A stretch of DNA of 64,000 bases from an uncultured Bacteroidota bacterium (GTDB lineage: Bacteria > Bacteroidota > Bacteroidia > Chitinophagales > Chitinophagaceae), in contig CAIPJS010000077.1 of the NCBI GenBank assembly GCA_903865435.1, positions 20,526 through 84,525 on the forward strand. The letters run 5' to 3'. Under the pieces are notes generated by a model. That model did no database searches. It worked only from the letters and a program-made list of their open reading frames with translations, and had not been told where the DNA came from. Shown here in pieces: positions 49,909 to 63,662 of the stretch (positions are counted from its first letter, which is position 1; every line of letters begins with the position of its first letter). Both the position numbers and the translations under genes were made by a program.

Positions 49909-51120
49909 TTAGGAAACAACTGCGGTTTCTTTTTTCTCTTTAAAAAATAAAATAAAGGCAATTAATACAGCGCCTGCAATGGCTGCAGGAACTAACCATA
50001 TACTTTGCCAATTGTGCTGGCTTGCAGCACCCGCTGCAGTGGCCACTTTATATTGGTCCACCACATGGCCACTATACAAGGTACCTATATACATACCTAC
50101 CCCATAAGTAGCGAAGGTAAATAAGCCTTGTGCTGCATTTTTAATTTTTTCACCCGCTTTTTTCTCGGTGTACATATAGCCTGTTACAAAAAAGAAATCG
50201 TAACAAACGCCGTGTAAAATAATACCTGCATATAACATCCAGCTATGTTCCATATTGCCATAAGCAAAAAATACATAACGGAGTAACCAAGCACTAATGC
50301 CTAATATGAGCATATTTTTTACACCTACTCGATTAAACATAAAAGGAATGGCTAGAATGAATAAGGCCTCTGACATTTGACCCATGGTCATTTTACTAGC
50401 TGCGTTTTCTAAACCTACTTCATTTAAAAAGGGATTCGCGAATCCGTAATAAAATGAAAGAGGGATACAAATTAAAATAGCTGATACGAAGAATATAAAA
50501 AACGATCTTGATTTAAATAATACAAAGGCGTCGGTGCCTAAGATAGAACCCATAGTTACTTTTTCTGCTTGTGCTTTAGGAGGTGTATTAGGAAGTGCGA
50601 AGCTTAATAGTCCTAAGAAAGCAGATACTGCAGCAGCTACATAAAATGTGCCCTCTGTTTTCTCAATACCTAATTGACCAATAACAATACCTGCCGCTAT
50701 CCAACCTAAGGTACCAAAAACGCGTATCCAAGGGAATTGTTTTCCAGGGTCGGTCATTTGAGCAAAGGCTACACTATTACTTAATGCAATAGTAGGCATG
50801 TACAATAAAGCGTATACTAAAATAACCCAGTAAAAACTTTGGTTATTGGCTTTAGTAGCATAAAAAAGTAAGGCAGCGCCTACAAAATGTAAAACCCCCA
50901 TAATTTTTTGTGCTGCAAAAAAACGATCGGCAATCATGCCTACAAAAAAGGGACTAAAAATAGTGGCAATGGCTACCGCACTATAGGCAGCTCCAATATC
51001 AAGCCCTGTTGATTTTAAAATTTCACCCATATAAGTACCCATTGTCACATACCATGCGCCCCAAATATAATATTGTAGGAACATCATGGAGGATAGCATT
51101 ACGCTAATTTTTGTTTTCAT
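49909..51120 (-). CDS. MFS transporter, nucleoside:H+ symporter-like
   Basis: A 403-residue inner-membrane protein with about 12 hydrophobic segments. The N-terminus (SSMMFLQYYIWGAWYVTMGTY) and the segment GMIADRFFAAQKIMG match the nucleoside/sugar permease branch of the major facilitator superfamily (NupG-like). In this setting, upstream of a MocA oxidoreductase, a sugar or sugar derivative is a more likely substrate than a nucleoside, but this is inference. The start codon has no clear promoter box. Confidence 0.87.
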   Translation of the reverse strand: MKTKISVMLSSMMFLQYYIWGAWYVTMGTYMGEILKSTGLDIGAAYSAVAIATIFSPFFVGMIADRFFAAQKIMGVLHFVGAALLFYATKANNQSFYWVILVYALLYMPTIALSNSVAFAQMTDPGKQFPWIRVFGTLGWIAAGIVIGQLGIEKTEGTFYVAAAVSAFLGLLSFALPNTPPKAQAEKVTMGSILGTDAFVLFKSRSFFIFFVSAILICIPLSFYYGFANPFLNEVGLENAASKMTMGQMSEALFILAIPFMFNRVGVKNMLILGISAWLLRYVFFAYGNMEHSWMLYAGIILHGVCYDFFFVTGYMYTEKKAGEKIKNAAQGLFTFATYGVGMYIGTLYSGHVVDQYKVATAAGAASQHNWQSIWLVPAAIAGAVLIAFILFFKEKKETAVVS

Positions 51121-51225
51121 ATATCGAGCTGTTTTTAAGCGTATTCAATATACTCAAAAAATTGGAAAATTGCCTTTTAGCGCAAGAAAAAATGATGAAA
51201 AACCAATTAAAAAATAGATAGTTTT

Positions 51226-52392
51226 TTAAGCTTCTAAAGCCTGTAGTATATCGGCTACAATATCTTCTTTATGTTCAAGGCCCACCGATATTCTAATTAA
51301 GCCATCGCTAATACTTACCGCATCTCTTTCTGCTGGTGAGAGTTTTGAATGCGTGGTGCTAGCAGGGTGAGATGCTATACTTCTTGTGTCACCTAAATTA
51401 GCTGTAAGCGATAACATTTTTAAATGGTTTAAAAAATGTCGGCCTGCTTCAAGTCCTCCTTTTATTTCAAAACAAACTATACCTCCACCATTTTTCATTT
51501 GCTTTTTAGCAATAGCATAATGAGGGTGCGATGTTAACAATGGATATTTTACAAAATTAATTTTTGAATGACCTTCTAATTTTTCAGCAACAAATAAGGC
51601 ATTGCTGCAATGTCTTTCCATTCTCACTTCTAAAGTTTCTAGACTTTTACTTAATACCCATGCATTGAATGGAGATAAAGAAGGACCAGTAGCGCGACAG
51701 AATAAATACATTTCATGGATTAAGTCCTTGCGACCTACAACGGCACCACCTAAAACACGTCCTTGTCCATCTATCCATTTAGTAGCTGAATGAATCACTA
51801 AGTCGGCACCTAAATCTATTGGAGTTTGACCAATAGGAGTGGCAAAACAATTATCTACATTTAAAATAATATTATGCTTTTTTGCAATGGTACTTACCAT
51901 GGCAATATCAATCACTTCTAATCCAGGATTAGTAGGGGTTTCTAAATAAATCATTTTGGTTTGCGGCGTAATGGCTGCTTCCCATTGAGCAGCAGTGGCA
52001 TTGGCACTTACATAACTAAAATCAATCCCGTATTTAGGTAAGTACTTAGAAATAACGTTACGCGTACTTCCAAAAACTGAATCACATGATAAAAGATGAT
52101 CTCCTTTTTTTAATAAGGCCATAAAAGAACCAAACACTGCACTCATTCCAGTAGCAGTAGCAAAACCTGCTTCTGCATTTTCTAAAATACATAAACGGTC
52201 TACAAATTCTTGCACATTTGGGTTAGAAAAACGACTATAAATATTTACATCTGTTTCATCGGCAAAAGCAGCGCGCATATCTTCTGCATTATCAAAAGTA
52301 AAACTACTTGTTAGATATAGGGGGCTCGCATGTTCTCCTTCTGCCGTTCTAGGAATCTGCTTTCTTATTAATTTCGATTGCGTATGCTTCAT
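51226..52392 (-). CDS. metZ: O-acyl-homoserine sulfhydrylase (MetZ-like), PLP-dependent
   Basis: A 388-residue Cys/Met-metabolism PLP enzyme (fold type I). The PLP lysine lies in VIHSATKWIDGQGRVLGG. Other family motifs are ENAEAGFATATGMSAVFGS and SHPASTTHSKLSPAERD. The N-terminal segment IPRTAEGEHASPLYLTSSF fits O-succinyl- or O-acetylhomoserine sulfhydrylases rather than cystathionine lyases. It would make homocysteine from the product of MetX, which is encoded 560 nt away on the other strand. It could still be a cystathionine gamma-synthase; the sequence by eye favours MetZ. Confidence 0.87.
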   Translation of the reverse strand: MKHTQSKLIRKQIPRTAEGEHASPLYLTSSFTFDNAEDMRAAFADETDVNIYSRFSNPNVQEFVDRLCILENAEAGFATATGMSAVFGSFMALLKKGDHLLSCDSVFGSTRNVISKYLPKYGIDFSYVSANATAAQWEAAITPQTKMIYLETPTNPGLEVIDIAMVSTIAKKHNIILNVDNCFATPIGQTPIDLGADLVIHSATKWIDGQGRVLGGAVVGRKDLIHEMYLFCRATGPSLSPFNAWVLSKSLETLEVRMERHCSNALFVAEKLEGHSKINFVKYPLLTSHPHYAIAKKQMKNGGGIVCFEIKGGLEAGRHFLNHLKMLSLTANLGDTRSIASHPASTTHSKLSPAERDAVSISDGLIRISVGLEHKEDIVADILQALEA

Positions 52393-52436
52393 ACAAATAA
52401 TTTTATGTGCTTAATCTTTTTCAATTTATTTCTATC

Positions 52437-52856
52437 TTATCCTAGCTCCACTTCCCAAGTAATCACAGCACCTGCTGCGCTTAGGGTAGCTGCTACAGAA
52501 CAATATTTATCTATGGACAAAGCGCAAGCTTTTTCTGCTTTCTCTTTGGTCATTGTGCCTTTGAATTTGAAAATAATATGAATGGTCTTCCACAAAGCAG
52601 GCTCTTTGCCTGTTTCACGTTCACCATCAATAACCATTTCAAAAAATTCTATGGTTTCTTTTTGTTTGTTTAATATCATCACAATGTCCACACCACTGCA
52701 TGCACCCAATGCACTCAATAAAGTTTGCATAGGTCTTAGTCCTGTGCCATGGCCTCCTTGGTCTACAGGAATGTCCAAGCGCATCGTATTATGGGCTTCA
52801 TCTACCGCATTAAAAGCAAATCCATCGTTCATCCTGGTCACGATCATCCTAGCCAT
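52437..52856 (-). CDS. OsmC/Ohr family protein
   Basis: A 139-residue OsmC-fold protein, likely a thiol-dependent peroxide reductase. The two redox cysteines are visible in LGACSGVDIVMIL near residue 50 and in SIDKYCSVAATLS near residue 123. The compact length fits the YhfA-like branch. It lies 44 nt upstream of metZ on the same strand and divergent from metX, so it may be expressed with methionine biosynthesis, though a direct role there is not known. Confidence 0.88.
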   Translation of the reverse strand: MARMIVTRMNDGFAFNAVDEAHNTMRLDIPVDQGGHGTGLRPMQTLLSALGACSGVDIVMILNKQKETIEFFEMVIDGERETGKEPALWKTIHIIFKFKGTMTKEKAEKACALSIDKYCSVAATLSAAGAVITWEVELG

Positions 52857-52951
52857 ACATTAATAATTGTTAGTTAATGGAAATATAAATTCCAATGAAT
52901 ATGCAAATGTAATTCAAATAGATAGTTACTTTGCACTACAATTCGAAAAAA

Positions 52952-53974
52952 ATGGAACCATTGGTCTATCAATATGATACCCCTTTTACGCTGGAATGTG
53001 GGGTGAGCCTGCCGCAATTGAAGATTGCTTATCATACTTATGGCAGTGATGCATCAGGTAAAAAAGTAGCATGGGTATGTCATGCGCTTACCGCTAATTC
53101 GGATGCGGCCGATTGGTGGAAGGGACTTATTGGGCCTGGGTCTTTAATTAATCCTGACGATTATTTTATTGTATGTGCGAATATCATTGGTTCATGTTAT
53201 GGATCTACTGGTCCATTGAGCAGTGAAATTGTGGGCACTTCCATTGGATTTGAGCAATTTCCAACTGTAACCATTCGAGATATGGTGCAAGCACATATTT
53301 TATTGCGTCAACATTTAGGCATCCATCAAATTGATTTGTTGTTGGGTGGAAGTATGGGTGGTTACCAAGCATTGGAGTGGGCGATATTTGAACCCACTGT
53401 TATTAAAAAAATGTTTTTGATTGCAACTTCACCTTCTGAAAGTGCATGGGGTGTTGCCGTACATACGGCACAAAGATTGGCCATTGAAGCAGATTGTACT
53501 TGGAACGAACCAACACCCAATGCTGGTGCGAAGGGATTAAAAGCGGCGCGTGCAATTGGTATGTTAACCTACCGCAACTACGGCATCTTTCAAGAAAAAC
53601 AAACCGATGAGGATCCTGAAAAAATTGACAATTTTAAAGCCTCTTCTTATATCAATTACCAAGGAGATAAATTGGTAAAAAGATTCAATGCTTATAGTTA
53701 TTGGTTATTGACCAAGTCTATGGACAGTCATCACTTGGCAAGAAAAAGAGGCGGAGATTTAATAGCCACTTTACAATCCATTCAAATTCCTACATTTATC
53801 ATTGGTGTAAGTAGTGATATTTTATGTCCTTTAGATGAACAAAGGTTTATGGAACAACATATGCCCAATGCTACCCTGGTGGCGATTGATTCGGTGTATG
53901 GGCATGATGGTTTTATTATTGAATCGGTGCAAATTTCGGCACATTTAAAAGCCTGGTTGGCCAAACAAGCTTAA
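52952..53974 (+). CDS. metX: Homoserine O-acetyltransferase
   Basis: A 340-residue alpha/beta-hydrolase-fold acyltransferase activating homoserine for methionine synthesis. The nucleophile elbow is LLGGSMGGYQALEW; the family motif NIIGSCYGSTGP is present, and the terminal catalytic pair is seen as SDILCPLDEQ (Asp) and GHDGFIIES (His). I start at ATG 52952; the track start is a TTG 7 codons upstream, overlapping a TTACTTTG promoter-like box. Acetyl versus succinyl specificity cannot be told by motif alone. It works with MetZ opposite. Confidence 0.93.
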   Translation: MEPLVYQYDTPFTLECGVSLPQLKIAYHTYGSDASGKKVAWVCHALTANSDAADWWKGLIGPGSLINPDDYFIVCANIIGSCYGSTGPLSSEIVGTSIGFEQFPTVTIRDMVQAHILLRQHLGIHQIDLLLGGSMGGYQALEWAIFEPTVIKKMFLIATSPSESAWGVAVHTAQRLAIEADCTWNEPTPNAGAKGLKAARAIGMLTYRNYGIFQEKQTDEDPEKIDNFKASSYINYQGDKLVKRFNAYSYWLLTKSMDSHHLARKRGGDLIATLQSIQIPTFIIGVSSDILCPLDEQRFMEQHMPNATLVAIDSVYGHDGFIIESVQISAHLKAWLAKQA

Positions 53975-54002
53975 TTAATATTAATTTTACTAAAAGACAC
54001 CT

Positions 54003-54182
54003 ATGAAATTTTTAAGACAAATTGGGGAGTACTTATTTATTGTAAAACGCGATCCAAATCAAGAAAGATCAGGAATGATGAAAGCCATGCATGGCATGAA
54101 TCGCATTTCCTTAATGATGTTTTTGATCGGACTTCTGGTGATGCTTTTTAGATTTGTAATTCTGCCTTATTTTAGGCATTAA
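54003..54182 (+). CDS. Small DUF6728-like membrane protein
   Basis: A 59-residue ORF below the ORF-track cut-off. It begins ATG at 54003, 28 nt after metX, and reads MKFLRQIGEYLFIVKRDPNQ, then MHGMNRISLMMFLIGLLVML, ending YFRH. I recognise the pattern EYLF-x-KRDPN ... MHxMNRIS plus one C-terminal transmembrane helix from a small Bacteroidota family of unknown function (DUF6728, from memory). It is convergent with lpxB, with only 1 nt between stop codons. Function unknown. Confidence 0.8.
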   Translation: MKFLRQIGEYLFIVKRDPNQERSGMMKAMHGMNRISLMMFLIGLLVMLFRFVILPYFRH

Positions 54183-54183
54183 A

Positions 54184-55299
54184 TTATTTGTGCTGCAAGG
54201 TTTGTAAAATAATATCAGCAGCTACTTCACTTGCCTTTTCTCCAGAATACAATTTATTTTTTAACGCAAGATAATCGGCTTGTATATTTTTTTGTGTGGT
54301 AGGATCTTCTAATAATTTAGTGAGCTCGTCTACTAAATTATCGGTATTTAAATTTTCTTGAATCAATTCTTTCACCACTTCTTTTTCCATAATTAAATTT
54401 ACTAGTGCAATAAATTTAATTTTCACAAAACGCTTTGCCAATGCCAAAGTAATGGAATTGCCTTTGTAACATACTACCTCAGGCACCCCTAATAATGCAG
54501 TTTCTAAAGTAGCCGTTCCACTGGTCACCAGTGCTGCTTGACTGTATTGTAAAAGCGCATAGGTGCTCGCTTTGACCACATGTACATTGGGTTGATGTGG
54601 AATTAAAGAGGCAAACCAATCATCATCCAATCCAGGCGCTTGCGCCACTACAAAATGATGGCCAGGAAAGTGAATGGCCACGCTTAACATGATGGGTAAT
54701 TTTTTTTCAATCTCTTGCTTCCTACTGCCAGGCAATAAAGCAATCATGGGCTCGTCTTTAAATTGAGGCAGAGGATGGGCTAGATTTTGTTGGGCAGCAA
54801 TTACTTCCATTAAAGGATGTCCCACATAATCTACTTCCCAGTCCCATCTATCTTTAAAATATTTTTGCTCAAAAGGTAAAATACATAATAATTTATCAAT
54901 GCTGGCACGCATGGCAGGGACTCTGTTTTCTTTCCAGGCCCAAACCTGTGGTGCAATAAAATAAATCACTTTTAAATTTTCTTGCTTCGCCCATTTGGCA
55001 ATTCTTAAATTAAAGCCAGGATAATCAATACATATTAAAACATCAGGTGCAAATGCTTTGATGTCTTTTTTACAAAAACGAATATTCTTAACAATAGTAG
55101 TTAAATTAAAAAGCACTTCTACCAAGCCCATAAAAGCTAGGTCTCTATAATGTTTCACCAATTTACCGCCAGCAGCTTGCATTAAATCGCCACCCCAACA
55201 TTGCACTACTGCATTGTTGTCCATGTTTTTGAGCGCTTTAATTAAATTGGCGCCATGTAAATCTCCGCTGGCTTCACCAGCTATGATGTAATATTTCAT
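54184..55299 (-). CDS. lpxB: Lipid-A-disaccharide synthase
   Basis: A 371-residue GT19 enzyme joining UDP-diacylglucosamine and lipid X in lipid A synthesis, peripheral on the inner membrane. Motifs are YYIIAGEASGDLHGANLI at the N-terminus, IDYPGFNLRIAKWA, VWAWKENRV and LLPGSRKQEIEKKLP, then TSGTATLETALLGVPEVVCY. It directly abuts the small membrane-protein gene upstream, in the order surE, small protein, lpxB. The start ATG follows the upstream stop with no gap. Confidence 0.95.
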   Translation of the reverse strand: MKYYIIAGEASGDLHGANLIKALKNMDNNAVVQCWGGDLMQAAGGKLVKHYRDLAFMGLVEVLFNLTTIVKNIRFCKKDIKAFAPDVLICIDYPGFNLRIAKWAKQENLKVIYFIAPQVWAWKENRVPAMRASIDKLLCILPFEQKYFKDRWDWEVDYVGHPLMEVIAAQQNLAHPLPQFKDEPMIALLPGSRKQEIEKKLPIMLSVAIHFPGHHFVVAQAPGLDDDWFASLIPHQPNVHVVKASTYALLQYSQAALVTSGTATLETALLGVPEVVCYKGNSITLALAKRFVKIKFIALVNLIMEKEVVKELIQENLNTDNLVDELTKLLEDPTTQKNIQADYLALKNKLYSGEKASEVAADIILQTLQHK

Positions 55300-55596
55300 T
55301 TATAAAAACCATTTACACGCAATGGCAATGACTGCGTAAATACAAGTCGTAAAAAATATGCCTTTGGCTATTTTGTCTTTTTGTTTTTGAAAGAAGATGG
55401 TGAGCATCACTCCGTTGATAAGCAAAGAGATGCTTATCATGGCCGATAAAATAGATTTTTGACGATTCAATAAATCTAAAAATTCATTTATTCCAAATGC
55501 ATTAAATCTCCATTCATAAAAAATGAGAAAGCCTAAGAAAGGCATCAGTAAGCCTACCATGACGCCAACAATATAATTGTCTTTTACCATTTCCAT
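55300..55596 (-). CDS. Hypothetical small membrane protein between surE and lpxB
   Basis: A 98-residue protein with three predicted transmembrane segments (about residues 8-28, 50-70 and 78-96) and a short loop FNAFGINEFLDLLNRQ between the first and second. It has no motif I recognise. It overlaps the surE stop by 13 bp and abuts lpxB, so co-translation is likely and a role in envelope biogenesis is conceivable. An alternative start (Met3) exists. Confidence 0.75.
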   Translation of the reverse strand: MEMVKDNYIVGVMVGLLMPFLGFLIFYEWRFNAFGINEFLDLLNRQKSILSAMISISLLINGVMLTIFFQKQKDKIAKGIFFTTCIYAVIAIACKWFL

Positions 55597-56369
55597 TTTT
55601 TACTTAATTTCTCTTTAATTACATGGTTGGTCAAATCAAATTGCACAGGTACCACACTCACATAATTATTTTTTAAAGCCCATACATCGGTGTCTTTGGA
55701 TTTATCAAAATTTACAAACTCACCTGTAAGCCAATAATATTTTTTACCATGAGGATCGGTTCTTTCAACAAATTTCTCATCATATTTAGCATAAGATTGT
55801 TTGCAAATTTTAATGCCTTTAATTAAATCGGTGGCTACTTTTGGAATATTTACATTCAAACAAAGATGTTTGTCCAAGTGCTTGTCTGCCAATAATTTTT
55901 TTACAATAATTCGAGCATAATGCTGGGCAGCTGTAAAATCGGCATCAATGCTTAGGTCCAAAAGACTAAATCCAATACTTGGAATACTTTCAATAGAGGC
56001 TTCTAAAGCAGCCGACATGGTGCCTGAATAAATTACATTGATGGAATGATTCGCTCCATGATTGATGCCACTTAAACAAATTGAAGGCTTGCGGTGCAAT
56101 ACTTTATCTACCGCTAATTTTACACAATCCACTGGAGTACCACTACAAGTATAGGCTTCTACGCCATCTACAATAGGTGCTTTTTGTAATCTTAAATGTT
56201 GTCCTAGAGTAATGGCATGTCCCATACCGCTTTGGGGTTTGTCTGGGGCGACCACCACCACTTTACCAAGATCTTTGACAGCTTCCACCAAAGCCTTTAT
56301 GCCTGGGGCACTGATACTGTCGTCATTGGTAATTAAAATAACTGGTTTTTCTTCTTTCTTCTTTACCAT
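55584..56369 (-). CDS. surE: 5'/3'-nucleotidase SurE
   Basis: A 261-residue metal-dependent phosphatase acting on nucleoside monophosphates. The SurE signature occurs as ILITNDDSISAPGIKALV with the metal-binding NDD, plus SGMGHAITLG and LSGINHGANHSINVIYSGT. I start at ATG 56369 (MVKKKEEKP); the track start 56402 is a TTG with no support. It heads the surE, small protein, lpxB run and is divergent from the XRE/S24 regulator. Confidence 0.94.
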   Translation of the reverse strand: MVKKKEEKPVILITNDDSISAPGIKALVEAVKDLGKVVVVAPDKPQSGMGHAITLGQHLRLQKAPIVDGVEAYTCSGTPVDCVKLAVDKVLHRKPSICLSGINHGANHSINVIYSGTMSAALEASIESIPSIGFSLLDLSIDADFTAAQHYARIIVKKLLADKHLDKHLCLNVNIPKVATDLIKGIKICKQSYAKYDEKFVERTDPHGKKYYWLTGEFVNFDKSKDTDVWALKNNYVSVVPVQFDLTNHVIKEKLSKKWKW

Positions 56370-56413
56370 AATGCAAGTTACCAAGATAGGCCCGCGCAAC
56401 AAAATAAAGAAAA

Positions 56414-56471
56414 TACTAAAAAATATTTGGTAATACTAATATATTTAGTATATTGCACTAAAATCATTAGT
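56414..56471. promoter_or_regulatory. Three tandem palindromes (candidate operators) at the XRE/S24 promoter
   Basis: TACTAAA-N5-TTTGGTA (56414-56432), TACTAA-TATAT-TTAGTA (56434-56450, perfect) and ACTAA-AATCA-TTAGT (56457-56471, perfect) share the half-site ACTAA/TTAGT and are spaced by about 20-22 bp, two helical turns. A possible promoter, TTTG (56426-56429), 19 nt, TATATTG (56449-56455), is interleaved with them. The last palindrome ends 1 nt before the ATG. This suggests negative autoregulation, and the region also borders surE. Confidence 0.6.
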
Positions 56472-56472
56472 T

Positions 56473-57276
56473 ATGTCATACGCAGGAAAAAATTTAAAGT
56501 ACATCAGAAAGCAGCGCGAATGGACACAAGAAGAAATGGCCAATCAACTTCAAATCAAGCGTTCCTTGGTAGGAGCTTATGAAGAAGAAAGAGCCGAGCC
56601 CCGCTTGGAAGTAATGGAAACCATTTGTGCAAAATTCTCCATTAGTTTGGAGGAATTTTTATTCCAAGATTTGGCCTTATTAAGTGCCAATGGGGAAGAT
56701 TCAAGTGGCTCTAATAATAGCTATATGGAGCGTCGTAGAGCCTTGAAATCGGATAAGTCCATTTCATTGGCATCTATGGTCACATTTGTACCGGTAAAGG
56801 CAGCAGCAGGTTATTTGGCTGGTTACGCCGATCCTGAATTTCTAGACGAATTAAATACCTTCACTTTGCCTATGTTGGCGCCAGGGGACTACCGCGCTTT
56901 TGAAATTTTAGGGGATAGCATGTTGCCTACGCCAAGTGGTAGTGTCATTGTGGGAGAGAAGGTAGGAAGCTTTAAAGAGGTAAAAAACAGCAATACTTAT
57001 ATTGTAGTTTCCAATGCGGATGGGGTAGTTTATAAGCGTATTATTACGAATGATGATCGTTCAAATACTGGGAAAGAGGATAAGCTTACTTTGTTGAGCG
57101 ACAATCCTTTATACGAGCCATATCAAGTAAATGCAACCGATATTGTAGAAATATGGAAAGCTGTTTATATCATACACAAAGCAGGGGCACAACCTATGTG
57201 GAATGTGGATCAATTAGCCGGTGTAGTGAATAATCTACAGGATCAAATTACAAGTTTAAAGAAAAAATTGAATTAG
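56473..57276 (+). CDS. XRE-family regulator with S24/LexA-like C-terminal domain
   Basis: A 267-residue protein. An N-terminal helix-turn-helix of the XRE/Cro type (residues ~6-62; WTQEEMANQLQIKRSLVGAYE) is joined to a C-terminal S24 peptidase-like domain with FEILGDSMLP (Ser) and VVYKRIIT (Lys), the catalytic dyad of LexA/CI-type autoproteolysis. A candidate cleavage region is the Ala-Gly of VKAAAGYLAG near residue 115. It may therefore be a DNA-damage or stress-responsive repressor cleaved in response to RecA, but the response is not shown. Three palindromes precede its ATG. Confidence 0.88.
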   Translation: MSYAGKNLKYIRKQREWTQEEMANQLQIKRSLVGAYEEERAEPRLEVMETICAKFSISLEEFLFQDLALLSANGEDSSGSNNSYMERRRALKSDKSISLASMVTFVPVKAAAGYLAGYADPEFLDELNTFTLPMLAPGDYRAFEILGDSMLPTPSGSVIVGEKVGSFKEVKNSNTYIVVSNADGVVYKRIITNDDRSNTGKEDKLTLLSDNPLYEPYQVNATDIVEIWKAVYIIHKAGAQPMWNVDQLAGVVNNLQDQITSLKKKLN

Positions 57277-57351
57277 TCTATTTTAATAAATTGAATATCA
57301 TTGTATTACAACAATATATTTAAATAAAAATAGCTGAATTTAATATTCATC

Positions 57352-58887
57352 TTATTCCCACTCTATGGTGGCGGGGGGTTTACTACTTATATCATAGACC
57401 ACTCTGTTGATGCCTCGAACTTCATTGATAATGGCATTGCTTACATGCGCCAAAAACTCATAAGGTAGGTGTGCCCAATCGGCGGTCATTCCATCTACCG
57501 AGGTAACAGCTCTCAATGCAATGGTGAATTCATAAGTACGTTCGTCACCCATTACGCCCACACTTTTTACTGGCAATAAAATAGTTCCAGCCTGCCATAC
57601 TTTGGTATACAGGTCAAACTCTTGTAAGGCATTCATGTAGATATGATCGGCTGCTTGTAAAAGGGCCACTTTCTCTGGAGTGATATCGCCCAATATTCTA
57701 ATGGCCAATCCTGGTCCTGGAAAAGGATGTCTATTAATTAAGTTGGCAGGGATGCCCAATTCTAAACCTACTTTTCTTACCTCGTCTTTAAATAAATACC
57801 TAAGCGGCTCCACCAATTTAAGGTGCATGGTATCAGGTAAGCCACCCACATTGTGGTGTGATTTAATGGTTTGAGAGGGACCATGAACACTTACGCTTTC
57901 AATCACATCTGGATAAATTGTTCCTTGACCTAAGAATTTGGCTTCCAATACTTTAGATGCTTCTATTTGAAATACATCTATAAATAGTTTTCCAATAATT
58001 TTTCGTTTTTCTTCGGGCTCAGACTTGCCTACAAGGGCATCATAAAACATTTGCTTCGCATCAATACCTGTTACATTTAAGCCAATGGATTTATAGATGT
58101 CTAATACGTCTTGGAACTCATTTTTTCGAAGTACGCCGTTGTCTACAAAGATGCCATGCAATCTGTCTCCAATGGCTCTATGAATGAGGGTAGCGGCTAC
58201 CGTACTGTCCACGCCACCACTTAAAGCCATAATCACATGACTGTCTCCAATCTGCGCTTTTAACTTGTCCACAGTTTCTTGTACAAAGGATGAAGGGGTC
58301 CAATTTTGATGGCAACCACAAATTTCTACCAGAAAGTTCTGGATCAATATTTTACCCTCTGTGGAATGATATACCTCGGGATGAAACTGAAATCCATGTA
58401 ATGGGTTGCCGGCGTCTTGTTTTTTTCTAAAAGCAGCTACTGGAATACTGTCTGTATCGGCCAAGAGTTCAAAATCTGCTGGTAGCTGTGTAATGGAATC
58501 GCTATGGCTCATCCAAACCTGGCTATTGTTGGCTATATTTTTAAATATAAGGTCGTCCTTTTGAATGCGCAATTGGGCACGACCGTATTCTCTTTTGTTT
58601 GATTTTTCTACTTTTCCACCAAAGTTTTTGGCACTTAATTGGGCACCATAACATATGGTTAAAACAGGTAGTTTGTCTAGAATGGCTTTGATGTCCACAT
58701 TGGGTGCATCGGCTTCATTCACACTTGCGGGCGAACCGCTTAAAATGACTCCTTTTAAGGTGGAATCAAACTCTATTTTGCTATTAAAAGGCTTTATCTC
58801 GCAATAAACGTTGGCTTCTCTTACCGCACGGGCAATAAGCTGTGTATACTGGCTTCCAAAGTCAAGGATGAGTATCTTTTCAGTCAT
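57352..58887 (-). CDS. guaA: GMP synthase (glutamine-hydrolysing)
   Basis: A 511-residue enzyme converting XMP to GMP. The class I amidotransferase domain is N-terminal ([18 protein letters not shown]; catalytic Cys in [12 protein letters not shown]; His/Glu in [10 protein letters not shown]). The ATP pyrophosphatase domain has the P-loop [15 protein letters not shown], and the C-terminal dimerisation domain ends KPPATIEWE. The start is ATG 58887 instead of track 58902: a TATCTTCG box lies 4 nt before it. Only a small gap separates it from the rpsT terminator. Confidence 0.96.
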
Positions 58888-58891
58888 AGCG

Positions 58892-58899
58892 CGAAGATA
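58892..58899 (-). promoter_or_regulatory. Possible -7 box of guaA
   Basis: TATCTTCG on the minus strand (one mismatch to TAnnTTTG), 4 nt before the guaA ATG. The track start would place it inside the coding region. Confidence 0.35.
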
Positions 58900-58908
58900 C
58901 ATAAAAAA

Positions 58909-58937
58909 AATCCCGCCTCGATTACTCGGAGCGGGAT
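58909..58937 (-). terminator. Intrinsic terminator of rpsT
   Basis: On the minus strand ATCCCGC...GCGGGAT followed by TTTTTTTT, lying after rpsT and before guaA. Confidence 0.75.
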
Positions 58938-58981
58938 GGGTATAATTGATTAGTTAATCTTAATTATCGAAAAAGCATTCA

Positions 58982-59242
58982 CTAAGCAGTTGCTTTAACA
59001 GCAACGTGTTTGGCCAATTTGCTTTTTAAATTAGCAGCTTTGTTTTTGTGGATAATGCCACGTTTTGCTAATTTGTCAATTTGAGAAATGATATTAGGTA
59101 ATTTTTCATTGTAGACCTTTTGATCGTCTGCAGTTTTTAATTCACGAATAGCGTTACGGGTAGTTTTACCATAATAACGGTTGCTGTCGCGACGTTTTGT
59201 TGCTTGTCTAATATCTTTTTTAGTTGCCGAGTGATTTGCCAT
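58982..59242 (-). CDS. rpsT: 30S ribosomal protein S20
   Basis: An 86-residue basic ribosomal protein that binds 16S rRNA early in small-subunit assembly. The N-terminus ANHSATKKDIRQATKRRDSN and the C-terminal IIHKNKAANLKSKLAKHV are characteristic of bS20. It is a single gene with its own promoter-like box (TACCTTTG) and terminator. No autoregulatory structure was seen in the short leader. Confidence 0.96.
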   Translation of the reverse strand: MANHSATKKDIRQATKRRDSNRYYGKTTRNAIRELKTADDQKVYNEKLPNIISQIDKLAKRGIIHKNKAANLKSKLAKHVAVKATA

Positions 59243-59265
59243 GTATTATTTAATTTTCAGGAGGG

Positions 59266-59273
59266 CAAAGGTA
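59266..59273 (-). promoter_or_regulatory. -7 box of rpsT
   Basis: Minus-strand TACCTTTG, a perfect TAnnTTTG match, 23 nt before the rpsT ATG; TTACCTTTG also precedes tgt and the aspartate kinase gene. Confidence 0.45.
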
Positions 59274-59466
59274 AGGTACTTAAACAAATAATTAAAATTA
59301 AAAATGAAAAAAAAGCAATTTCTATATAAATAATTGATTATCAATATTTTATATATATTTTACGATCTAGCATTACTGCCTTCATTGCTTTATTCTTTTG
59401 AAGGCTTAATTAGCAGTTTTAAACGGATATTTGCACCACCAGAAAACAAAGCGCACGCTCTAGAAA

Positions 59467-60477
59467 ATGACAATTGACAAATACCACAACTCGCATCAGA
59501 ACGTAGCAGACAAATTGGTGAGAGAATACGAGGGGCCCATGCCTTTTTCCCTTTATTTGAAAAACTACTTCGCTGCCAATAAAAAACATGGAAGTAAAGA
59601 TCGTAAAAGTATCAGTGCCATATGTTATGAATATTTTAGAAAATTAAGTGCACATTTCCCTTTGCAAAGTTTTATTTCTCCTTTTATAGATATTCCAAAA
59701 TTTACCGCTTCACATTTACAACAACCTTTACTGTTTATACGTGCAAGGCCAGGTAAAAAAGAACTGGTAAAAGCAACCTTGGAAAAAGCAGGCTTGTTTT
59801 TTGAGTGTATGAATGAAATGACATTTGCATTGCCTAATACAAGTTCGCTTCAAAATATTATGGTATTGAATAAAGAGGCAGTGATTCAGGATTTAAATTC
59901 ACAAGCCCTTGTTTCTTTATTACAATTAATTCCAGTTACAGAAAAACCATTGGTTTGTTGGGATGCTTGTGCAGCAAGTGGAGGAAAATCTATTTTAATT
60001 AAAGATTGTATTCCCAATGCACAATTGCATGTTTCTGATATTAGAGCAAATATTTTATTCAATTGTGAAAAGCGTTTAAAAGAAGCAGGCATTCAACCAG
60101 CTTCCCTGCAAGTAGTGGACATTACTTTGCCCTTTGCTATTAAAAAACAATTTGATTTTATTTTTGCCGACCTGCCTTGCTCTGGAAGTGGTACTTGGGG
60201 ACGTACACCCGAAAACTTAGTGGGCTTTACGGAAAATCAATTGGAAGGGTTTACAACATTACAAGCTAAAATGTTGCAACATTTAACACCTGCATTAAAA
60301 GTAGGAGGGCATTTATTAGCTGCAACATGCTCTGTGTATCAAAATGAAAACGAAGCGCAAATTGAAAAATTATTGACCACTGGCAAATTCAAATTGGTTG
60401 CACAGCAATATTTTATTGGCTATGAAAAGCAAGCTGACACGCTGTTTGGAGCCTTGCTACAAAAAATTTCAGACTAA
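59467..60477 (+). CDS. RNA (cytosine-C5) methyltransferase, NSUN/RsmB type
   Basis: A 336-residue SAM-dependent methyltransferase. The SAM-binding region is CWDACAASGGKSILIKD near residue 160. The two family cysteines lie in FADLPCSGSGTWGRTPENL and AATCSVYQNENEAQIEKL. The N-terminus has a short helical region in place of the full NusB-like domain of RsmB. The target is probably C967-like in 16S rRNA or a tRNA cytosine; unresolved. The gene has a GATATTTG promoter-like box about 30 nt upstream and is convergent with mnmA. Confidence 0.9.
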   Translation: MTIDKYHNSHQNVADKLVREYEGPMPFSLYLKNYFAANKKHGSKDRKSISAICYEYFRKLSAHFPLQSFISPFIDIPKFTASHLQQPLLFIRARPGKKELVKATLEKAGLFFECMNEMTFALPNTSSLQNIMVLNKEAVIQDLNSQALVSLLQLIPVTEKPLVCWDACAASGGKSILIKDCIPNAQLHVSDIRANILFNCEKRLKEAGIQPASLQVVDITLPFAIKKQFDFIFADLPCSGSGTWGRTPENLVGFTENQLEGFTTLQAKMLQHLTPALKVGGHLLAATCSVYQNENEAQIEKLLTTGKFKLVAQQYFIGYEKQADTLFGALLQKISD

Positions 60478-60497
60478 ATTATAAGAATCAGACTGGC

Positions 60498-61622
60498 TTA
60501 TACAAGTGGCGAGAAGCTTGGAATTAAGTGACCACTTTGAATGATACCTCCTGCCACTACATCATCGCCCTCGTAAAAAACGGCACTTTGCCCAGGCGCA
60601 ATGCTTTTTACATTTTCGTAAAATCTTGCTTGTATGCCATTATTGGTATTGGATAAAGTACATAGGGCACCTTCATCTTTGTATCTAATTTTAGCCATCA
60701 GTTCCATCTCATCCGCTACATGATCGTATTTGATCCAATTTAATTTAGCAACCATCATGTCATTTTGGTCCAAATCATTTTCATCTCCAATCACTACTTC
60801 ATTTTTTATTGGATCGATAGATACTACATAAGCGGGTTTGCCCAATGCAATCTCTAAACCTTTTCTTTGTCCAATCGTATAAAATGGGTAGCCCTTGTGT
60901 TTGCCCAATCTTTTTCCCTTGGTGTCTAAGAACCATCCTCCATTTACTTTTTCTTCCAATCCATCCACACGTCTTTTTAAAAATCCACGGTAATCATTGT
61001 CAGGCACAAAACAAATTTCATAGCTCTCGCTTTTTTTAGCCAGCTCGGGATAGCCCATATCAATCGCCATTTGTTTGATGTCTTTTTTATGCATGCCACC
61101 TAATGGTAAAATTGTTCTACTTAATAAATCCTGATCCACGCCCCATAAAACATAACTCTGATCCTTGGTGCTGTCCAAACCTTTAGAAATTACATAACGG
61201 CCATTGGTATGTTGACGCACTTTAGCATAATGCCCTGTGGCAATATAATCACAACCCAATGCGTCCGCTCTTTTTAATAAGGCCCTCCATTTAATATGCG
61301 TATTGCACATCACACAGGGATTGGGCGTGCGGCCTGCTAAATATTCTTCTACAAAATTTTCAATGACAAAGTCACCGAATTCATCTCTTATGTCTAAAAT
61401 ATAATGTGGGAAGCCATTGTTTACTGCCGCCAAACGGGCATCATTGAAAGAATCAATATTGCAACAACCAGTTTCTTTTCCGTTGGCATTGCTGGTAGCA
61501 TAATCCCAGGTTTTCATGGTAATGCCTATTACTTCGTAGCCTTCGTTGTGTAGCATTAAAGCTGCTACAGTGCTATCGATACCGCCGCTCATTGCGACTA
61601 AAACCTTTCCTTTCTTGCTCAT
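60498..61622 (-). CDS. mnmA: tRNA-specific 2-thiouridylase MnmA
   Basis: A 374-residue enzyme putting sulfur on U34 of Lys, Glu and Gln tRNAs. The N-terminal ATP pyrophosphatase P-loop is VLVAMSGGIDSTVAALM; the catalytic cysteines are in TPNPCVMCNTHIKW and SYEICFVPDNDYRGFL. The start is ATG 61622 (MSKKGKVLVAM): the track start 61667 lies at a TACTTTTG promoter box. The C-terminal beta-barrel domain is complete. The sulfur carrier proteins are not in the window. Confidence 0.95.
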   Translation of the reverse strand: MSKKGKVLVAMSGGIDSTVAALMLHNEGYEVIGITMKTWDYATSNANGKETGCCNIDSFNDARLAAVNNGFPHYILDIRDEFGDFVIENFVEEYLAGRTPNPCVMCNTHIKWRALLKRADALGCDYIATGHYAKVRQHTNGRYVISKGLDSTKDQSYVLWGVDQDLLSRTILPLGGMHKKDIKQMAIDMGYPELAKKSESYEICFVPDNDYRGFLKRRVDGLEEKVNGGWFLDTKGKRLGKHKGYPFYTIGQRKGLEIALGKPAYVVSIDPIKNEVVIGDENDLDQNDMMVAKLNWIKYDHVADEMELMAKIRYKDEGALCTLSNTNNGIQARFYENVKSIAPGQSAVFYEGDDVVAGGIIQSGHLIPSFSPLV

Positions 61623-61653
61623 AGTGTTTGGCCAGTTAAAAGTTGGCTTGGCA

Positions 61654-61661
61654 CAAAAGTA
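61654..61661 (-). promoter_or_regulatory. -7 box of mnmA
   Basis: Minus-strand TACTTTTG, a perfect TAnnTTTG match, about 31 nt upstream of ATG 61622; it overlaps the N-terminal codons of the longer ORF-track start. Confidence 0.4.
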
Positions 61662-61782
61662 ATTCATCTTTACTAAATGGCAGAATGTTCATAAAATGAG
61701 TCAGGCTTTTCAGTTCAAAATTCTAAAAAATACTATCTTCACTTTCAAACAATGATTCAATAAAACGACTAAAACACAGAAA

Positions 61783-62226
61783 ATGATCAAGCTACAAGTA
61801 ATCGGAAATTTGGGTAAAGATGCCCTAGTGAACAATGTAAATGGCAAAACTGTCATTAATTTTAATGTCGCCCACACAGAACGTTATAAAGATGCGCAAG
61901 GCAATCAAAAAGATAGAACTACTTGGGTGGATTGTTCTTATTGGACCGATCGCACAGCGGTTGCTCCTTATTTAAAAAAAGGAACTCAAGTATATGTAGA
62001 AGGAACGCCAGATGTAAGATCTTACACCACTGCTGATGGAAGAAATGGTGCTTCATTAACATTACGTATTGTTTCTGTGCAATTGTTAGGTGCTAAACCT
62101 TCAGGAACTGGAAGCAATGATGCAGCTGGAAATCCAGCAGATCAAAATACAGGTAACAGTTACAATCCTTCTGCAGCAAGCGCAGGGGGGAACGATGAAG
62201 CTGCTGTAGATGATTTGCCATTTTAG
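61783..62226 (+). CDS. ssb: Single-stranded DNA-binding protein
   Basis: A 147-residue OB-fold protein coating single-stranded DNA in replication and repair. The fold segments VIGNLGKDALVNNVNGKTV, TTWVDCSYW and GTQVYVEGTPDVRSYTTADG are present, then a flexible Gly/Asn/Ser-rich linker and the acidic tip DDLPF, which binds repair and replication partners. It is monocistronic, followed by a small hairpin terminator. A second paralogue may exist elsewhere. Confidence 0.95.
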   Translation: MIKLQVIGNLGKDALVNNVNGKTVINFNVAHTERYKDAQGNQKDRTTWVDCSYWTDRTAVAPYLKKGTQVYVEGTPDVRSYTTADGRNGASLTLRIVSVQLLGAKPSGTGSNDAAGNPADQNTGNSYNPSAASAGGNDEAAVDDLPF

Positions 62227-62272
62227 ATTCCTACTCAATCAATAGACTAACATTAGTTTGCAATTAGTTTTT

Positions 62273-62304
62273 AAAATAAGGGCATTTAATTGCCCTATTT
62301 TACT
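62273..62304 (+). terminator. Intrinsic terminator of ssb
   Basis: AAATAAGGGCA / TGCCCTATTT hairpin with one bulged A, followed by a weak T-run. It is close to the aspartate kinase promoter. Confidence 0.55.
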
Positions 62305-62322
62305 ATTGCCTATTTACCTTTG
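62290..62322 (+). promoter_or_regulatory. Promoter of the aspartate kinase gene
   Basis: TTG (62290-62292), 22 nt, TACCTTTG (62315-62322), a perfect TAnnTTTG box, with the ATG 20 nt downstream. Confidence 0.45.
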
Positions 62323-62342
62323 AGCCTTGAAAAAAAAGTGCA

Positions 62343-63662
62343 ATGAAAATAATGAAGTTTGGGGGAACAAGTGTGGGCAAGCCTGGGCGCATGCATCAAG
62401 TTTCTCAATTAATTACTAGAGATAATGAACCAACTATTGTAGTACTAAGTGCATTAAGTGGTACAACCAATGCATTAGTAGAAATAAGTAAGAGCCTAGG
62501 GTCAGCTGATAAAAAAGCAGCTACAGAAAAAGTAGAAGTACTAGAGAAACAATATCGTGCTTTTATACTTGAATTACTTTCTGGAGAAGCATTGCGCGAA
62601 AAGGCCAATGAAATTATTACGGAGCATTTTGAATTTTTAAAGATTACACAGAAGATTTCTTTAAGCGATGCATTGAATAAAGATATTTTGGCGCAAGGGG
62701 AATTAATGAGTACCAAACTTTTTTCTTTGTATTTAGAACAAGAAAAAATTGAGCACGCATTATTGCCTGCATTAGATTTTATGCAATTGGATTTGAATGA
62801 TGAACCCGATTTAGTGGCCATCGCAGAAAAAATAAAAAAAGTTTTAGCAGCACATCCTACTTCTAATTTATTTATAACGCAGGGTTATATTTGTCGCAAT
62901 GCAAAAGGCGAAGTGGACAATTTAAAAAGAGGAGGCAGTGATTATACTGCTTCACTTATTGCTGCAGCTGTTCATGCAAGTGTTTGTGAAATTTGGACTG
63001 ACATTGATGGCATGCATAATAATGATCCTAGAGTGGTAGAGAAGACAGTGGCCATTGAGCAATTAAGCTTTGATGAAGCTGCGGAGTTGGCCTATTTTGG
63101 TGCTAAAATTTTACATCCTACTTGTATTTGGCCTGCTCAACAAGAAAACATTCCAGTTCGATTGTTAAATACCATGGAACCAACTGCCGCAGGAACCGTA
63201 ATTAAAAAAGAAGCGGGTAGTGTGGGCGTAAAAGCAGTGGCTGCCAAAGACAATATCATTGCTATAAAAATTAAAAGTAGTAGAATGTTATTGGCTTATG
63301 GGTTTTTAAGAAAAATATTTGAAGTATTTGAGAAGTATAAGACACCCATTGATATGATTACTACTTCGGAAGTAGCGGTTTCTGTTACGATTGATACAGA
63401 TGTACATCTTCATGAAATTATTGCAGAGCTGAACTTAATTGCTTTAGTAGAAGTAGAGAAAAATCAAACTATTGTTTCTATTGTAGGAAATGAAATTGCA
63501 CAAACAGAATCGGTGCTTAAAAAATTATTTGATGCCATCGATGAAGTACCTGTGACGATGGTAAGTTATGGAGGAAGCCATCATAATATTAGTTTATTAG
63601 TTCCAAGCGCTTACAAGACTAAAACATTGCAATTGGTCAATAAGGGGCTGTTTAATTTATAG
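62343..63662 (+). CDS. lysC: Aspartate kinase (monofunctional)
   Basis: A 439-residue kinase making aspartyl phosphate, first step to lysine, threonine and methionine. The N-terminus KIMKFGGTSVGKPGRM is the kinase signature; the substrate loop appears as RGGSDYTASLIAAAV and WTDIDGMHNNDPRVV. Two ACT domains follow (about residues 300-439), allowing feedback control by end products. No homoserine dehydrogenase domain is fused. metX and metZ in this window use a downstream product, homoserine. A terminator follows 168 nt later. Confidence 0.94.
   Translation: MKIMKFGGTSVGKPGRMHQVSQLITRDNEPTIVVLSALSGTTNALVEISKSLGSADKKAATEKVEVLEKQYRAFILELLSGEALREKANEIITEHFEFLKITQKISLSDALNKDILAQGELMSTKLFSLYLEQEKIEHALLPALDFMQLDLNDEPDLVAIAEKIKKVLAAHPTSNLFITQGYICRNAKGEVDNLKRGGSDYTASLIAAAVHASVCEIWTDIDGMHNNDPRVVEKTVAIEQLSFDEAAELAYFGAKILHPTCIWPAQQENIPVRLLNTMEPTAAGTVIKKEAGSVGVKAVAAKDNIIAIKIKSSRMLLAYGFLRKIFEVFEKYKTPIDMITTSEVAVSVTIDTDVHLHEIIAELNLIALVEVEKNQTIVSIVGNEIAQTESVLKKLFDAIDEVPVTMVSYGGSHHNISLLVPSAYKTKTLQLVNKGLFNL

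Follow-up and report, generated by a model that had tools for sequence, protein, structure and literature searches.

The regulator gene studied here lies in a window of 64,000 nucleotides (the whole stretch of DNA that was analysed) and almost certainly encodes a non-canonical LexA that represses itself, recA and the umuDC operon and is released by DNA damage. The palindromes at its promoter appear to be two operators plus a degenerate third site. An anonymous XRE/S24 gene can thereby be read as what is probably the master repressor of the SOS response in a group of freshwater bacteria. The core regulon is recovered by the paired-operator signature alone, with hardly any background. Two leads were also exposed: a UmuD without its catalytic dyad, and a transposable element with what look like host SOS operators.

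Repressors of this kind have been described from Bacteroidetes that lack LexA and have HTH + S24 proteins instead (Sanchez-Osuna et al., 2021; PMC8565304). They form two groups, binding either GGA-N5-TCC or CTAA-N5-TTAG, and the Chitinophagaceae are listed among the families with the CTAA-N5-TTAG group (PMC8565304).

The regulator and its genomic context

The regulator (267 aa; positions 56473..57276, + strand) matches HTH_3 (PF01381, 39.6 bits, aa 8-62) and Peptidase_S24 (PF00717, 24.9 bits, over the cut-off, aa 128-228), as anticipated by the earlier note, which had read the protein as a helix-turn-helix joined to an S24 autoprotease. We identified a predicted self-cleavage site, Ala112-Gly113 (56806..56811, + strand), a predicted catalytic serine, Ser149 in a GDSM stretch (56917..56919, + strand), and a predicted catalytic lysine, Lys188 in a YKR stretch (57034..57036, + strand). 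All are invariant in 30 orthologues, the 30 aligned sequences including proteins down to about 56-57% identity, and all correspond to residues needed for self-cleavage of S24 repressors. A fold search with the predicted structure (a low-confidence model, pLDDT 64) gave the lambda repressor and LexA of T. maritima as its top-ranking matches; these are taken as supportive only.

The genome searched (2.33 Mb in 95 contigs) belongs to the Sediminibacterium group of the Chitinophagaceae. It encodes only two S24 proteins, the regulator and UmuD. The LexA DNA-binding domain PF01726 was not found in this genome; the same search was positive in 10 of 14 control genomes. Matches to the regulator are present in 48 of the 61 genomes searched, the named relatives being Sediminibacterium and other Chitinophagaceae.

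The divergent neighbour of the regulator is surE, and the other neighbours, named by inspecting translations, look like lpxB, guaA, rpsT, an ssb-like gene and an aspartokinase-like gene. The neighbours at 49909-63662 look like host genes, and synteny is kept in relatives, with surE found at 62 and guaA at 58 of 80 regulator loci. This context bears on the idea that the region descends from the control region of a prophage and is not a host system. An ancient phage-repressor origin has been suggested for the whole non-canonical LexA family, which may descend from CI-type repressors of phages (PMC8565304), which speaks for the idea. Against it, a search of 50,697 phage records gave no full-length homologue, only three matches to about half of the regulator at 33-38% identity, and none was found in the viral contigs searched. 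The same boxes also occur at recA and umuDC. With housekeeping neighbours in conserved order, a prophage remnant is very unlikely, and this suggestion of the earlier note is left unsupported.

Operators in the regulator promoter

Three palindromes precede the start codon (ATG at 56473), at 56414-56432 (TACTAAAAAATATTTGGTA), 56434-56450 (TACTAATATATTTAGTA) and 56457-56471 (ACTAAAATCATTAGT), where the earlier note had placed them. Its description of two of them as perfect is true of the downstream pair only as regards the arms; counted over the full length, 12 of 17 and 10 of 15 positions are self-complementary, and 14 of 19 are in the upstream palindrome. The published core CTAA-N5-TTAG fits the two downstream palindromes only, as the upstream one is an imperfect CTAA-N6-TTTG with a longer spacer. 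The second palindrome contains SOS box 1 (CTAATATATTTAG, 56436..56448) and the third contains SOS box 2 (CTAAAATCATTAG, 56458..56470), both exact matches to the core, with starts 22 bp apart.

The promoter sequence TTTG-N19-TATATTG is present as had been noted. TTTG, a putative -33 element (56426..56429, + strand), is invariant in 45 distinct relatives, and TATATTG, a putative -7 element 19 bp past it (56449..56455, + strand), is TAAATTG or TATATTG in relatives. We take these to be a promoter of the Bacteroidetes -33/-7 type; a sigma-70 promoter scan gave nothing above chance. Box 1 thus lies within the promoter spacer, and box 2 lies over the expected transcription start and ends 2 bp before the ATG. 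The 100-bp region 56373-56472 is common to the regulator and the divergent surE (ATG at 56372), and repressor binding there could affect surE as well.

In an AT-rich intergenic region, such palindromes might arise by chance, and the single motif is indeed not enriched genome-wide: ACTAA-N5-TTAGT, for which the earlier note had proposed a genome-wide search, occurs 7 times against 16 for its reversed control, and CTAA-N5-TTAG 51 times against 95. Single-motif genome counts prove nothing alone, however, and other evidence leaves chance a negligible prospect. Two exact boxes are expected with P about 5e-6 in Markov shuffles of the 100-bp region, and tandem pairs stand out from their control both in this genome and across the genus (see below). 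Far from being unconserved upstream of orthologues, the motif has half-sites that are 100% conserved in both boxes across 45 distinct close-clade promoters, while box 1 has an N5 spacer that drifts (mean 0.71). Invariant half-sites around a drifting spacer are the mark of a dyad operator. The tandem pair is kept in 29 of 29 regulator promoters of relatives, at a spacing of 22-24 bp, and at least one exact box is present in all 79 regulator promoters read, those of 78 relatives plus that of the window. At least one exact box also lies upstream of 15 of the 26 best class-level homologues.

The upstream palindrome is central to another reading, that of a CI/Cro-type switch whose three operators would differ stepwise in strength, with 56414-56432 as the third. 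The HTH + S24 architecture is that of CI. The upstream site is also kept as CTAA-N5-TTTG at -56 in 42 of the 45 distinct close-clade promoters, and its left half is 97% conserved in this nearest clade, compared with 63% in the flank. Against this, most of the wider genus does not have the third site, and its right half is the TTTG element of the promoter itself. In the window its spacer is 6 bp long and one half-site is mismatched; in Pontibacter actiniarum, altering the half-sites or the spacer length abolished binding (PMC8565304). Nor is there a divergent cro-like gene, as surE occupies that position. We therefore consider such a switch unlikely, and the triple operator layout proposed in the earlier note reduces to two boxes that fit the motif and a degenerate site that only the nearest clade keeps. 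In the reading we prefer, that of a non-canonical LexA with a pair of operators, 56414-56432 is probably a third box, weak or vestigial, that overlaps the -33 element, and it may act as a weak extra operator.

Relative to close relatives, the window has one extra A in the A-run at 56420-56423, which brings the third-site spacer to 6. This may be a real indel or a homopolymer or assembly error.

Extent of the regulon

We searched for tandem pairs, defined as two boxes separated by 8-12 bp, using the reversed pattern as control. The genome contains three pairs compared with none for the control, at the regulator, recA and umuDC, made up of six of the 51 CTAA-N5-TTAG sites. Thus, the clear regulon consists of these three operons. 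The boxes lie 97 and 74 bp upstream of the recA start and 39 and 17 bp upstream of that of umuD. UmuC of the umuDC operon is the sole Y-family polymerase found in the genome. Among the other genomes of the genus, 35 of 36 have at least one tandem pair, versus a few scattered matches to the control. The pair is present in all 28 readable recA promoters, with a spacing of 23-24 bp; umuD promoters have two boxes in 20 of 30 cases and one box in the other 10.

The further sites inspected were not retained. Of 42 such sites, 33 are contained in open frames spanning 120 codons or more; the nine outside such frames are isolated, and no SOS gene was recognised next to any of them. Two more listed sites are intragenic. 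A site identical to the umuD box (C72:93983) was dismissed, as it coincides with the extreme end of a hisS-like gene and no gene begins beyond it.

Single exact boxes also occur no more than about 65 bp from the starts of four genes of this genome (L196, L202, L222 and L223), which by inspection are SmpB-like, RlpA-like, small secreted-type and TyrS-like. These are possibly chance occurrences or weak members of the regulon.

As a point against our reading, the regulator was undetected in six of the 36 other genus genomes, four of them 60-78% complete and two 96-97% complete. Five of the six have readable recA or umuD promoters and keep boxes there, so the absence most likely reflects assembly gaps. 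The use of these genomes as a natural test of regulator loss was dropped, since their readable promoters retain the boxes.

UmuD and an insertion sequence

In all 30 genus genomes compared, the catalytic serine and lysine of UmuD are replaced by Ala (in an NSDAM stretch) and Arg, and its cleavage site is Thr-Gly instead of Cys-Gly. The loci were the genome's own umuD (L005:2807-3250) and L152-L181, and the alignment was checked against PDB 1umu. In a UmuD of a different family in the order (L285), GDSM, the lysine and Ala-Gly are all retained. The UmuD of this genus is thus predicted from its residues to be uncleavable.

In one relative (G027; L258:1-995), one tandem pair occurs about 17 times, mostly at contig ends. 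The pairs sit in the left end of an element of about 1 kb, which is bounded by inverted ends that match and encodes a transposase of the IS1595 family; the transposase ATG directly follows the second box. A second relative (G035; L254:2234-2364 and L255:1465-1603) has one left end, 91% identical, with the same kind of pair. This arrangement points to a transposable element under SOS control, whose transposition would be damage-inducible provided that the host repressor binds the pair.

Proposed mechanism

We propose that repressor dimers would bind both boxes in the regulator's own promoter, one dimer occupying the promoter spacer that separates the -33 from the -7 element and the other covering the transcription start. 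RNA polymerase would thereby be shut out, and the repressor would limit its own synthesis. The 22-24 bp spacing would place the two dimers on one face of the DNA. Tandem pairs at recA and umuDC would hold both operons down likewise. On DNA damage, RecA filaments would form and bring about self-cleavage at Ala112-Gly113 by Ser149 and Lys188, the cleaved dimers would leave the DNA, and the three operons would be induced. Binding and cleavage of this particular regulator are what we infer; for a related protein, others have demonstrated binding to the motif and induction by mitomycin C. The earlier view of the region as a chromosomal, damage-responsive switch is strongly supported by the boxes at recA and umuDC, the conserved autocleavage residues and the lack of any other LexA in the genome.

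A broader proposal is offered only tentatively, as we think it somewhat improbable in its entirety. The SOS response of this freshwater lineage may have shrunk to three operons, each with a fixed double operator in tandem to which two repressor dimers bind cooperatively, and a weak third box at the repressor promoter, with cleavage of the repressor as the sole proteolytic control on polymerase V. The last element follows from UmuD being without a protease dyad of its own, which would leave repressor cleavage as the only such control.

Comparison with known systems

By its motif, domains, residues and targets, the regulator appears to be a member of the CTAA-N5-TTAG group of Bacteroidetes non-canonical LexA proteins. 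It has the PF01381 HTH and an S24 domain with Ala-Gly and Ser-Lys, the motif with the same spacer occurs in its own promoter and at recA and umuDC, and canonical LexA is lacking. The phylum is the same, as are the targets recA and umuDC and the autoregulation (predicted here). The P. actiniarum protein of this group (WP_025606010.1) binds CTAA-N5-TTAG specifically in EMSA, and induction by mitomycin C was demonstrated in that organism (PMC8565304).

The regulator resembles canonical E. coli LexA in being an S24 autoprotease with its own gene, recA and umuDC as targets of SOS repression, but it is without the winged-helix PF01726 domain and its motif is not CTGT-N8-ACAG. With phage lambda CI and P22 C2 it shares a CI-type multi-helical HTH joined to S24 and several operators per promoter. 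Unlike these, it is a host chromosomal gene with no divergent cro and no lysogeny module, and its boxes occur at DNA repair genes. UmuDAb of Acinetobacter and HdiR of Lactococcus are likewise S24 proteins in SOS-like regulation (PMC8565304). However, UmuDAb has its origin in UmuD, whereas HdiR groups with phage repressors of streptococci, and both have other motifs and narrower targets.

Families including the Chitinophagaceae have 8.90 +/- 3.27 operons in the regulon (PMC8565304), compared with three here, each with a tandem pair. Several promoters of the published systems carry two or more boxes (PMC8565304), but the boxes here form a pair with a fixed spacing of 22-24 bp, unlike those of the published group. 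The system as such is already known; new here is a member whose regulon is notably small and whose operators come in regular pairs.
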